A stretch of DNA of 15,023 nucleotides from Clostridia bacterium. GTDB lineage: Bacteria > Bacillota > Clostridia > Oscillospirales > CAG-272. The notes below the pieces were generated by a model, which ran no database searches, was not told the origin of the DNA, and saw only the letters and a program-made list of their open reading frames with translations. This document shows positions 11,537 through 15,023 of the stretch, in pieces (the stretch's first letter is position 1; each line of letters opens with the position of its first letter). Both the position numbers and the translations under genes were made by a program. The stretch covers positions 1 through 15,023 of the forward strand of contig JAGDBW010000122.1 in assembly GCA_017958845.1 (NCBI GenBank), written 5' to 3'.

Positions 11537-12769
11537 ATGACCACCCCCGAGATCCTCTCCCCCGCCGGCAATGAGGAAAAGATGCAGGCCGCCCTGCGCT
11601 ACGGCGCCGACGCCGTCTATCTGGCGGGCAAGGCCTACGGTATGCGCGCCTCGACCGACAACTTTACCCCCGACGAGATGCGCCGGGCCGTCGCCTGGGC
11701 CCATGAGAAAAACAAAAAAGTCTACGTGACCGTCAACACCCTGCCGCGCGAGGACGAACTGCCGGCTCTGTGCGCCTACCTCGGCGACCTGGGTGAGATC
11801 GCGCCCGACGCGCTGATCGTCGCCGACCTCGGCGTCTTTGAAATGGCCAAAAAATATGCCCCCCGCGTCCCGCTCCACGTCTCCACCCAGGCCGGCTGCG
11901 TCAACTCCGCGTCGGTCAACTTCTGGTACGGCATGGGCGCACGGCGCGTCATCCTTGCGCGCGAGCTGTCGCTGTCCGAGATCCGCGCCATCCGCCGCGC
12001 GACCCCGCCCGACGTGGAGCTGGAGGTGTTCGTCCACGGCTCCATGTGCGTCTCTTTCAGCGGCCGCTGCCTGCTCTCCAACTACCTGACCGGCCGGGAC
12101 GGGAACCGGGGGCAGTGCGCCCAGCCCTGCCGCTGGAACTACGCCCTGCGCGCCTACGCCCTCGAAGAAGAAAAGCGCCCCGGCTCCTTTCTGCCCGTCG
12201 AGGAGCACGGCGGGGAGACCTTTGTCATGTCCTCGCGCGACCTGTGCATGATCGGACACATGGAGGACCTCCTGGAGGCGGGCGTCTCGTCCTGCAAGAT
12301 CGAAGGCCGCGCCAAGAGCGCCTGCTACGCCGCCGTGACCGCCAACGCCTACCGCCTTGCCGCCGACGCCGCGGCCGCCGGCCGCCCCTTCGACCCCGCC
12401 CTTTTGCGCGAGGTGGAGAGCGTCTCTCACCGCACCTACGACACCGGCTATTTTTACGCCGACCCGCGCCGGGACGCGGAGACCGTCGCCGCCGACGGCT
12501 ACCTGCGCGAAAAGGCCTGGCTCGCCACCGTCCTCGACTACGACCCCGCCTCCGGCACGGCCCTGTGCCGCCAGCGCAACAAGTATATCGCCGGTCAGCC
12601 GCTCGAAGTGCTCACCCCCGGCCGCACGGGCGTCGCCGTCACCCCCTCCGCGCTCACCGACCCGGACGGCGCGCCCATCGACAGCACCCCGCACCCGGGC
12701 ATGCTCTTCCGCCTCGCTCTGCCCATCCCGGTCATGCCGGGCGACCTGCTCCGCGAGGCCGACGACTGA
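11537..12769 (+). CDS. U32 family protein, likely tRNA uridine hydroxylation enzyme (TrhP/YrrO-like)
   Basis: A 410-residue member of the peptidase U32 family. Bacterial relatives (TrhP, YrrN/YrrO) take part in prephenate-dependent hydroxylation of wobble uridine in tRNA, while RlhA hydroxylates 23S rRNA, so 'protease' is probably a misnomer. The barrel start PEILSPAGNEEKMQAAL and the signature ELEVFVHGSMCVSFSGRC are clear. Cys171, Cys178, Cys194 and Cys198 match the expected iron-sulfur ligands. SSCKIEGRAKS and SHRTYDTGYFY follow, then a small C-terminal domain. AAAGGA lies eight bases before the ATG. It is divergent from the HIT gene by 93 nt; I found no clear promoter for it. Which RNA position it modifies is uncertain. 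Confidence 0.92.
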   Translation: MTTPEILSPAGNEEKMQAALRYGADAVYLAGKAYGMRASTDNFTPDEMRRAVAWAHEKNKKVYVTVNTLPREDELPALCAYLGDLGEIAPDALIVADLGVFEMAKKYAPRVPLHVSTQAGCVNSASVNFWYGMGARRVILARELSLSEIRAIRRATPPDVELEVFVHGSMCVSFSGRCLLSNYLTGRDGNRGQCAQPCRWNYALRAYALEEEKRPGSFLPVEEHGGETFVMSSRDLCMIGHMEDLLEAGVSSCKIEGRAKSACYAAVTANAYRLAADAAAAGRPFDPALLREVESVSHRTYDTGYFYADPRRDAETVAADGYLREKAWLATVLDYDPASGTALCRQRNKYIAGQPLEVLTPGRTGVAVTPSALTDPDGAPIDSTPHPGMLFRLALPIPVMPGDLLREADD

Positions 12770-13043
12770 CGCCAAAAGCGCAAAAATATCACAAAACCCC
12801 CGCCGCGATCACACGCAAAGCCGACCACCCCTCCCGCCATGACACCTCCGGCCGAAAAAGACCACCTCCGGCCGAAAAAGACCACCCCGGCCGACAAAAC
12901 CAACCGCACCGACAAAATCAAACGAAAACAGATCGGGCGGAACAGCGCAAAGAGCGCTGAAACAAAAGGCGCACGATTGTCGGCGAAGCACCCGAAAAGC
13001 CACAAATTGTTTATAAAAAATTGTTAATATTCCAAAAAAGTTA
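12770..13043. other. T-poor spacer after the U32 gene
   Basis: No credible gene. In 12771-12960 I count 70 A but only 10 T in 190 bases, a very strong skew. It includes the 20-nt direct repeat at 12844-12883, a small inverted repeat AGCGC/GCGCT (12944-12948, 12954-12958) and A-runs about 8-11 bases apart at 12774-12796. No proper terminator for the U32 gene is visible. From about 13003 the sequence becomes A/T-rich on both strands (TTTATAAAAAATTGTTAAT), which could act as an UP element for the promoter at 13044. Confidence 0.6.
12844..12883. repeat. 20-nt tandem direct repeat
   Basis: Two perfect adjacent copies of a 20-base unit start at 12844 and 12864, each with core TCCGGCCGAAAAAG. A third, shortened and diverged copy follows at 12884-12901. 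The period is about two helical turns and each unit carries a five-base A-run plus the palindrome CGGCCG. Confidence 0.85.
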
Positions 13044-13072
13044 TTGACATCGCGTTTCATTTGCAATAGACT
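13044..13072 (+). promoter_or_regulatory. Strong sigma-A-type promoter with AT-rich upstream element
   Basis: A perfect -35 box TTGACA (13044-13049) and TAGACT (13067-13072) are separated by 17 bases. The 40 bases upstream are A/T-rich. The start is predicted at about 13079-13080, exactly where the first RNA hairpin begins. Confidence 0.75.
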
Positions 13073-13078
13073 ACAGGT

Positions 13079-13256
13079 AGGATCGCACAAGCGATCCGAC
13101 CGAGACAAAAGACGTACCCACACCGAGACACACCCGACGACGTGCGCCCGACCACAGCCGCACCGACAGCCGAGTCGCCTCGCGGACAGGCGCGCATCCG
13201 CCGATGCTTGCGGCGCACGAAAGACGGACATCCCGTTTTCGCGCGCCGTTTTTTAT
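13079..13256 (+). ncRNA. Predicted structured untranslated RNA (independent sRNA or attenuator leader)
   Basis: About 175 nt lie between a consensus-like promoter and an intrinsic terminator with no start codon preceded by a ribosome-binding site. It opens with a 7-bp hairpin with arms GGATCGC (13080-13086) and GCGATCC (13091-13097) and an ACAA loop. A T-poor linker at 13098-13175 follows; across 13096-13173 the tetramer CCGA occurs seven times. Two small hairpins come next (CGCCT/AGGCG, 13176-13192; GCAT/ATGC, 13194-13207) and then the terminator. It resembles no RNA family I recognise. It is either a free small RNA or the leader of the lipoprotein gene at 13306, whose expression would then need read-through. 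No other good promoter was found for that gene. Confidence 0.55.
13211..13256 (+). terminator. Intrinsic terminator of the predicted RNA
   Basis: The outer stem CGGCGC (13211-13216) pairs with GCGCCG (13243-13248). An inner stem continues through one A-C mismatch and one bulged A up to ACGG/CCGT around an ACATC loop, about 15 pairs in all including one G-T. TTTTTTATTT follows immediately. Confidence 0.8.
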
Positions 13257-13305
13257 TTGATACTGTATATTGTTCATCTCAAATAACGAAAGAAGGAGTC
13301 TCGTT

Positions 13306-14241
13306 ATGAAAATAAAAGCTTTTTGTCTTTTGATAATCCTCTGTCTGTTTCTTCTTTGCATACCGTTGTCGTCCTGCCAACAAACCGATACGACAGAAAA
13401 AAGCACCACCGTGATAGCAAATACCGAAAGCAACAGTTCTGTCTGGAGGAGAGTCACATACGAGTTCGGATCGATCAAAGATATCGAAATTTATGCGCGC
13501 ACACAGTCTGCCGACCCGGCCGATTATCCCGACACCGCCGCTTCAACCATCAACAGTCTCGTTTCCCGTTCAACCACAATAGGTATATATGATCCGGTCG
13601 AGCAAACGTTCATAGAAGTTCATCAGGTCAATGTCGTAGAAGACTATGGTTACAAATCTCTGTTTGACCTGTTTGATACCGACGAAGATTCTTTTGAGAG
13701 TGCCTACGCCATCCTAAGTCCGCTTCTGGACGGAGTTTATAATGTCATATATACATTCGTGACAGATGACGCAAGAGTGTCAGTTTCCTCAGTGTTTCTT
13801 GCCGGCACGGACACCCTCGATACATTGCAAAAGATGTCGGGGGTCATGTTCTTTCCTGATGATATCTTGGTGATCGACGGAAAAGCCCACCAAATCAACA
13901 ACTTTCTGCATACGAGAACGCCATTGCAGCTTCCCGACAAAGTCGTCACATACGGAGAAGAAGATAGTATACAAAACGCGCTGGTTGTTCGTGATACTGA
14001 TGTCGGACAGGTTGTCTATTGGGTCGAGGACGGGTTTAAACATTGCGCCTATATTCAAGTCGATGGTTTTCTTGTCACCGTCCACTATGCTGCAGAAGCC
14101 GATACATTGACCCGCTTAGACTTTGATCGGTTCTTATCCACTCCAAAATACGCCCCCTTCGCCGCCCTCTTCTCCGAGGACGACGCGGTCTTTGAGGCGG
14201 CGATGGAGCGCCTGACGGGCGGCCCTGCTCTCGAAGATTGA
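13306..14241 (+). CDS. Putative lipoprotein of unknown function, first of a tandem pair
   Basis: A 311-residue protein with a lipoprotein signal peptide: basic MKIK, a hydrophobic core at about 5-20 and lipobox LSSC with Cys24 as the lipidated residue. A Ser/Thr-rich linker (25-45) precedes a domain I do not recognise. It should be anchored to the outer face of the membrane. The fragment VTYEFGSIKDIEIYARTQS and a later YIQVDGFLVTV resemble parts of the next gene product. The ATG at 13306 has GAAGGAG seven bases upstream. Sampled GC is about 40%, far below the roughly 68% of the U32 gene, but the last 30 or so codons (14150-14235) jump to about 72%. It is preceded by the predicted structured RNA. 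Confidence 0.85.
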   Translation: MKIKAFCLLIILCLFLLCIPLSSCQQTDTTEKSTTVIANTESNSSVWRRVTYEFGSIKDIEIYARTQSADPADYPDTAASTINSLVSRSTTIGIYDPVEQTFIEVHQVNVVEDYGYKSLFDLFDTDEDSFESAYAILSPLLDGVYNVIYTFVTDDARVSVSSVFLAGTDTLDTLQKMSGVMFFPDDILVIDGKAHQINNFLHTRTPLQLPDKVVTYGEEDSIQNALVVRDTDVGQVVYWVEDGFKHCAYIQVDGFLVTVHYAAEADTLTRLDFDRFLSTPKYAPFAALFSEDDAVFEAAMERLTGGPALED

Positions 14242-14288
14242 TCGCCTTTTTCCGCAAGACAGAATGTCACAGAAAGGTGGCTTTAAAC

Positions 14289-15023
14289 ATGAAAAAAAGA
14301 GTGTTTTTACCGTTGATTCTTTTGTTGAGCGTTGTATGTTCTTGTATGTTTTCCACATCTTGTCACAGCGGCGAAGAACAACGGCAAACGACCGAAGAAG
14401 TGAAAAGCCAAAGCGAAAACGACCATTCCGAAGTGGCAGAGGGCGATCTGGTGGTGTATGAGTTTAGGTCGATGCAGGATATGCACACCTATATTACCAC
14501 CGGCTCCACCGATTCGGACGATTATCAATACCCCGGCGGCATCCTCTTTAACCAAACGGCGGCAGAACGCGCACGCGAGTACGGCTACCGGCCGTTGTGG
14601 CAGTATTTTGACATTGATCCGGAACAATATGAGCGCAACGTATGCGGTTTCAGTTTTGATGCCGACAGACCCCGTATTCTCCATACGGTCTATTGCATGG
14701 ATGAGATCGGCGTTTCATTGATCGCGGCCTCTCAGTATTATAGAGAGGGGTTGCCCTGTTTATTTGATTACTATGTGGCATTCTATGGGGACGAAGTTCT
14801 TCGCCCGACCGAGACCGAAAGCGACATGGTGCTGTTTTCAAACAGAAAAGAGGTAGAAAACGGCTACATTCGCAGAGAATACGGCGACTCATACGTACTG
14901 TATCGTATCACAGACGGAAAGTTTGTATCGTTCGCGTATGTGGTTGACGGCGCGCTGTTGACGATTCGTCAGATTCATCTTACGACAGATATGACCCACC
15001 GGGATTTGGGAGAGATCACGACC
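14289..15023 (+). CDS. Putative lipoprotein of unknown function, second of a tandem pair (cut by window end)
   Basis: Open from the ATG at 14289 to the window edge, 245 codons without a stop, so the C-terminus is missing. MKKR and a hydrophobic stretch start a lipoprotein-like signal. The lipid cysteine is ambiguous: VCSC (Cys19) or STSC (Cys25), the latter with an unusual -3 residue. A charged Glu/Gln/Ser-rich linker follows. VVYEFRSMQDMHTYITTGST and, near the edge, AYVVDGALLTIRQ align by eye with the first lipoprotein, suggesting paralogues. AAAGGTGG lies about eight bases before the ATG. It begins 47 nt after the first gene with no terminator seen, so the two are probably co-transcribed. 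No function is recognised. Confidence 0.82.
   Translation, partial: MKKRVFLPLILLLSVVCSCMFSTSCHSGEEQRQTTEEVKSQSENDHSEVAEGDLVVYEFRSMQDMHTYITTGSTDSDDYQYPGGILFNQTAAERAREYGYRPLWQYFDIDPEQYERNVCGFSFDADRPRILHTVYCMDEIGVSLIAASQYYREGLPCLFDYYVAFYGDEVLRPTETESDMVLFSNRKEVENGYIRREYGDSYVLYRITDGKFVSFAYVVDGALLTIRQIHLTTDMTHRDLGEITT

Follow-up and report, generated by a model that had tools for sequence, protein, structure and literature searches.

Two lipoprotein-like genes in this Clostridia contig are preceded by what we tentatively read as an attenuated 5′ leader, one that would limit, and possibly regulate, lipoprotein expression. The window, meaning the whole stretch of DNA that was analyzed, comprises 15,023 nucleotides and is the entire contig G000:C104 of a 67%-complete genome (G000). 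We infer that a sigma-A-type promoter at 13044-13072 is used to start a transcript from ~13079, whose first 19 nt would fold as a hairpin, perhaps shielding the 5′ end. An unstructured C/A-rich linker would come next, followed by a strong intrinsic terminator at 13210-13254, where most transcripts would stop and leave a leader RNA of ~176-178 nt. Those that read through would supply the two lipoprotein genes, which start at 13306, and some signal would alter termination. The promoter match, the hairpin, the terminator, the ribosome-binding site and the co-directional genes 51 nt downstream are all present in the sequence.

The locus has the makeup of an attenuator, namely a promoter, a leader with an intrinsic terminator, and a co-directional gene behind it. 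We also counted in favor of this reading that the lipoprotein gene is preceded by a good ribosome-binding site and lacks a good separate promoter. Against it we counted the lack of a homologue, the weak −10 element, a middle region that resembles shuffled sequence, and promoter-like matches at 9/12 positions in the gap before the gene. If the reading is correct, the locus is a further example of a gated lipoprotein operon, from a Clostridia lineage that is uncultured. It also offers a calibration: when read from sequence alone, a promoter-hairpin-terminator layout can mark a transcription unit that is real and yet not indicate a new class of structured RNA. The features are as follows.

11537..12769, + strand: upstream gene, U32 peptidase family protein (Pfam PF01136, 1.7e-88)
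12999..13043, + strand: A+T-rich, UP-element-like stretch, 80% A+T over 45 nt 5′ of the −35 element
13044..13072, + strand: sigma-70-type promoter match by pattern, TTGACA-17-TAGACT, predicted start ~13079
13080..13097, + strand: perfect 7-bp hairpin GGATCGC-ACAA-GCGATCC at the RNA 5′ end; as DNA, an inverted repeat at the start site
13098..13142, + strand: C- and A-rich unstructured linker with CCGA tetramers (MFE 0.0 for 13099-13142)
13141..13148, + strand: candidate antiterminator strand CGTGCGCC, complementary to 13212-13219 in the terminator 5′ arm
13143..13206, + strand: G+C-rich middle with weak hairpins (z 0.19, same as shuffles)
13171..13214, + strand: 44-nt block, 34/44 identical to the G000:C10 (L069) leader in an ungapped local alignment
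13210..13254, + strand: intrinsic terminator with an imperfect stem (13210-13249) and a run of T (13249-13254) (−25.3 kcal/mol, z −5.0)
13290..13298, + strand: ribosome-binding sequence AAGAAGGAG, a sequence match 5′ of the ATG at 13306
13306..14241, + strand: lipoprotein-like P0003, 311 aa, near-orphan; lipoprotein label by eye from the N-terminus
14289..15023, + strand: lipoprotein-like P0002, running off the contig; distant paralogue of P0003 (23% identity, E 3e-10, single comparison)

Promoter, folded ends and terminator

The promoter, the 5′ hairpin and the terminator are very probably real. An initial annotation of this DNA had proposed that the RNA has its own promoter, and both the pattern at that site and a genome-wide control support it. 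TTGACA at 13044-13049 and TAGACT at 13067-13072, separated by a 17-nt spacer, agree with 10/12 consensus positions, and TTGACA-N16-18-TANNNT matches the genome 85 times vs 2 for a reversed control pattern. Apart from the window promoter, 83 distinct matches were located in extracted loci; 80 were long enough for comparison and 3, being too short, were dropped. The promoter stands behind 80% A+T DNA within a 62% G+C window, the joint-highest upstream A+T content among 81 promoter matches (mean of the 80 others 43%, highest 80%). Its −10 element is weak, with only 4/6 consensus positions, where 70 of the 80 others have five or six (3/6, n = 2; 4/6, n = 8; 5/6, n = 30; 6/6, n = 40). A promoter scan of the entire window gave 5 matches vs 2.1 in shuffles, and a scan of 12000-15023 gave 1 vs 1.8, which is no excess.

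When each part was folded and compared with 500 dinucleotide shuffles, the RNA proved to have two strongly folded ends and an ordinary interior. The perfect hairpin that had been described at the predicted first base is present at 13080-13097 (z −6.5; 0/500 shuffles equal it). A perfect stem of at least 7 bp at the predicted start recurs in 2/80 other promoter matches, L211, where it is nearly all A/T, and L257. The linker and the middle hairpins together fold no better than shuffles (z 0.13). The whole RNA scores z −3.4, equaled by 1/500 shuffles, and a separate run gave z −2.8 (1/200). The linker had also been credited with seven CCGA tetramers, and seven are indeed found in ~80 nt spanning 13096-13173 (at 13096, 13100, 13123, 13134, 13148, 13163 and 13170), plus one at 13201. 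Across 13079-13257 this makes 8 vs 3.2 expected (~2.5x; 7/2000 shuffles reach 8), a density of 45 per kb vs 8 per kb on the window + strand. The 274 bases 5′ of the promoter hold 6 vs 3.3 expected (1.8x; reached by 147/2000 shuffles). CCGA thus appears enriched in the transcript, yet we give this little weight and do not count it as significant, because CCGA is the commonest of the 256 tetramers and was chosen post hoc.

The terminator had been described as a long, imperfect GC-rich stem followed by six T, and its folding bears this out: none of 500 shuffles is as good. The stem consists of 7 bp, a mismatch, 4 bp, a bulged A and 5 bp around a loop of 5. Terminator pattern scans allow no bulges, so they do not list it. 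The next ATG, expected ~50 nt farther on, lies at 13306, 51 nt beyond the terminator. That this ATG lacks a good promoter of its own is a fair statement, and not an absolute one, since the gap (13255-13305) holds promoter-like matches, the best being TTGATA-16-TCAAAT and TTGATA-19-AATAAC at 9/12 positions. Neither combines the −10 A (position 2) and T (position 6) with 16-18 spacing.

Attenuation would be expected to involve alternative folds, and the predicted folding offers one candidate. In the MFE structures of prefixes ending at 13225-13245, 13141-13148 pairs with 13212-13219 (8 bp), and the terminator displaces this helix at 13250. This modeled switch resembles attenuator behavior; the sole antiterminator candidate is not significant, as 126/2000 shuffled upstream sequences pair equally well with the terminator arm.

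Comparable layouts in the same genome

The other promoter matches of this genome indicate what such a layout often represents, namely tRNAs or attenuated leaders. Of the 80 other promoter rows, 14 are followed within 300 nt by a terminator whose energy is −12 kcal/mol or lower, and the terminator of the window is the second strongest of the resulting 15. Rfam, run on 70 of 79 promoter loci, finds families in five of the 14: three tRNAs (L180, L185, L243), an L10 leader (L186) and a tandem c-di-GMP-I riboswitch (L197). Four more, none of them reaching a family match, we assign by eye, three presumably to T-boxes (L202/L203, and L213 twice) and one (L237) to what we take to be the leader of a gene resembling a uracil permease. 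The other five (L181, L190, L198, L207, L219) are without assignment, which we counted against the attenuator reading; the stem of L190 and that of L207 fall within the earliest open frame that has a ribosome-binding sequence. L213 (G000:C86:3407-4226) and L203 (G000:C54:906 onward), whose leaders we regard as T-box look-alikes, carry GGTGGTACC near the terminator and are not in the Rfam list at gathering score. A very G+C-rich leader at L219 (G000:C113:416-700; 260 nt at −135 kcal/mol) precedes a gene that looks zinc-ribbon-like by eye, and this leader has no Rfam match.

In L186, L197 and L237, the terminator falls shortly before a co-directional start codon, as it does in the window, and these recognized rows are attenuated leaders. 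Because of this precedent, we favor attenuation over the free small RNA, though we do not regard it as proved. The L10 leader (RF00557) and the c-di-GMP-I riboswitch (RF01051) share with the window a TTGACA-type promoter, a leader of 100-300 nt, and an intrinsic terminator shortly 5′ of a ribosome-binding site and start codon. They differ in that the window leader has no known aptamer or protein-binding fold, and no homologues of it were found. The initial annotation had offered two readings, a stable small RNA or an attenuator gating the lipoprotein genes. Both remain the leading ones, and the genome control leans to the attenuator.

Alternative readings

The main rival, which we consider possible though rather unlikely, is a small RNA of ~176-178 nt that stands on its own; the lipoprotein genes would then have a separate transcript. 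Here the 5′ hairpin and terminator would protect the RNA, and its unpaired, C-rich linker might base-pair with the G-rich ribosome-binding sites found in target mRNAs. The complete promoter and terminator, the A+T-rich upstream DNA, the two strongly folded ends and the unstructured linker are all consistent with this, as are the weak promoter-like matches 3′ of the terminator. Against it stands the company that such RNAs keep in this genome, where the Rfam-named stable RNAs with a promoter-terminator layout are tRNAs. A terminator followed by a gene occurs in 0/2 of the tRNA rows judged: no ribosome-binding sequence with a start codon turned up for L180, and in L185 the sole candidate frame begins before the terminator. 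Known small RNAs offer partial likenesses. Some trans-acting bacterial small RNAs have C-rich unpaired seed regions; the window RNA shares with these a 5′ hairpin, an unpaired C-rich linker and a terminator, and differs in that no homologues of it were found. In length it is near the 180-200 nt of 6S RNA (RF00013). A long closing helix joins the ends of 6S RNA, whereas the ends of the window RNA fold locally.

Searches for relatives also weigh against a free small RNA. The initial annotation had seen no fit to 6S, SRP, tmRNA, T-box or familiar riboswitches, and the whole window has no Rfam match at gathering score, and 12900-13400 searched up to E 5 yields only Histone3 (17.2 bits, cut-off 34) and sX14 (14.3 bits, cut-off 80). 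The only genome match to 6S RNA lies elsewhere (G000:C200:2111-2304, 70.7 bits). By its lack of an Rfam match the locus differs from the raiA-motif RNA of Clostridia (ModT; PMC11706538), a structured noncoding RNA of Bacillota. A DNA search of 97 other genomes returned no convincing homologue; its matches apart from the window have E values of 0.008-1 (best 0.008), and those listed are short (~16-52 nt). A one-sequence covariance model (R1) gave five matches with E <= 0.5 in 68 other genomes of the genus, the best in G009 at 0.038. We rejected all five (L064-L068) as homologues, as they lie inside coding frames. In 295 genomes of the order (own + 294), R1 finds only its own genome at E <= 0.01. 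Searches of more than 40 genomes apply stricter filters, by which weak matches are lost. The proposal of a new structured RNA is not supported: the middle folds like shuffles and no convincing homologue emerged by DNA, covariance model or neighboring proteins. The locus is not a demonstrated new structured RNA class.

A second alternative, which strikes us as unlikely, invokes ordinary neighbors with no regulation at the RNA level: 13210-13254 would end the U32 transcript, and the repeat at 13080-13097 would be a putative DNA operator for a repressor. It gains from the fact that, in a scan made without bulges, no terminator is listed on the + strand from 12770 up to the promoter. It gains also from L257, whose 9-bp G+C-containing inverted repeat at the start site suggests that +1 operators may occur here. 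That repeat, AATGAGACG-GTG-CGTCTCATT (G000:C220:9783-9812 and downstream), lies near the predicted start, 5′ of a gene that we take, by eye, to encode a LexA-like repressor, and is perhaps the operator of this gene. With up to 2 mismatches, GGATCGCNNNNGCGATCC has 23 sites vs 4 for its reversed control, which is a poor one because it holds CTAG; this tetramer is rare in many bacteria. The genome holds no second copy of the repeat at 0 or 1 mismatch, which argues against this reading. Among the 22 other 2-mismatch sites, 14 were viewed; 13 of these fall in stop-free frames of >300 codons, none has an adjacent promoter match, and no site recurs. Scans of three neighboring proteins name no regulator, and this reading leaves the promoter between U32 and the terminator unexplained.

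It is improbable, in our judgment, that the arrangement is a chance assembly within an intergenic region that is long and biased, the terminator alone being functional. The weak −10 and the lack of excess in the 12000-15023 scan would fit such an origin, but the perfect TTGACA, the 17-nt spacing, the A+T-rich upstream DNA in so G+C-rich a window, the 85 vs 2 genome control, and a 7-bp hairpin without mismatches, placed at the predicted start and rarely equaled at other promoter matches, all speak against it.

We give still less credence to a small, lineage-specific, riboswitch-like element with at least two genome copies, one in the lipoprotein leader and one in the G000:C10 leader, in which a closing helix would take the terminator 5′ arm (GCGGC) and so prevent termination. 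The second leader (L069:143-393; G000:C10, minus strand) is 213 nt long, lies behind TTGACA-16-TATAAT and precedes a gene that looks membrane-protein-like by eye. Its first half is A/C-rich and its second half G+C-rich, it shares the 44-nt block, and R1 ranks it second in its own genome (14 bits, E 0.22). The local score of the block, 38, is the best among 80 leaders (next 28) and is reached by 0/2000 shuffles. Among 40642 tiles of collected loci, L009, itself chosen from 98 genomes with the same query, scores 41, and loci not so chosen (L091, L135) score up to 34, so that real G+C-rich DNA comes near this score or exceeds it. The block lies 92 and 109 nt from the TTGACA promoter in the two copies. 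A consensus fold of the two leaders has two-sided changes in 4/21 pairs, and G000:C10's own best fold differs from it. Its stability is reached by 145/1000 column shuffles, the fold being derived from the same two sequences; its two-sided changes are reached by 41/1000 and its covariation score by 22/1000, with two sequences only. A search with model R2 yielded no further copy in the collected loci (93 and 75 sources; best other match E 0.12).

Lipoprotein genes and their neighborhood

The genes that the attenuated leader would gate are nearly without relatives. A search of ~5.8 billion proteins with P0003 found two at E <= 0.001 (98% and 40% identity). Among 69 genomes of the genus it occurs only in its own (1/69), and it has no Pfam or NCBIfam match above cut-off. 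No match was obtained when P0003, P0005 and the 98%-identical protein, P0004, were aligned against genome_contigs, where near records may be absent, or when P0003 was searched in viral_contigs. For P0002, other genomes gave no more than two partial matches, both weak (E 0.004 and 0.007). The tandem pair (13306-15023) has 47-48% G+C inside the 62% G+C window, and was possibly acquired or is fast evolving.

For the upstream U32 gene, 62/69 genus genomes have a match. Its named relatives, among the 80 of 237 listed, are mostly from Clostridia/Oscillospiraceae metagenome-assembled genomes at 46-55% identity, although very near records may be absent. In 26 of 29 U32 loci in other genomes, a tblastn search from the L033 protein places nearby a gene that we assume to be undecaprenyl-diphosphatase-like; the exceptions are L032 (where the contig ends 3 bases past the match), L034 and L052. 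The gene is found in 2/80 more distant U32 loci and not in the window. Because this usual companion of U32 is missing here, the intergenic region of the window looks lineage-specific. Within that region, 5′ of the promoter, 12844-12883 holds two exact tandem copies of a 20-nt unit, ACCTCCGGCCGAAAAAGACC, and after them comes a third copy that has diverged.
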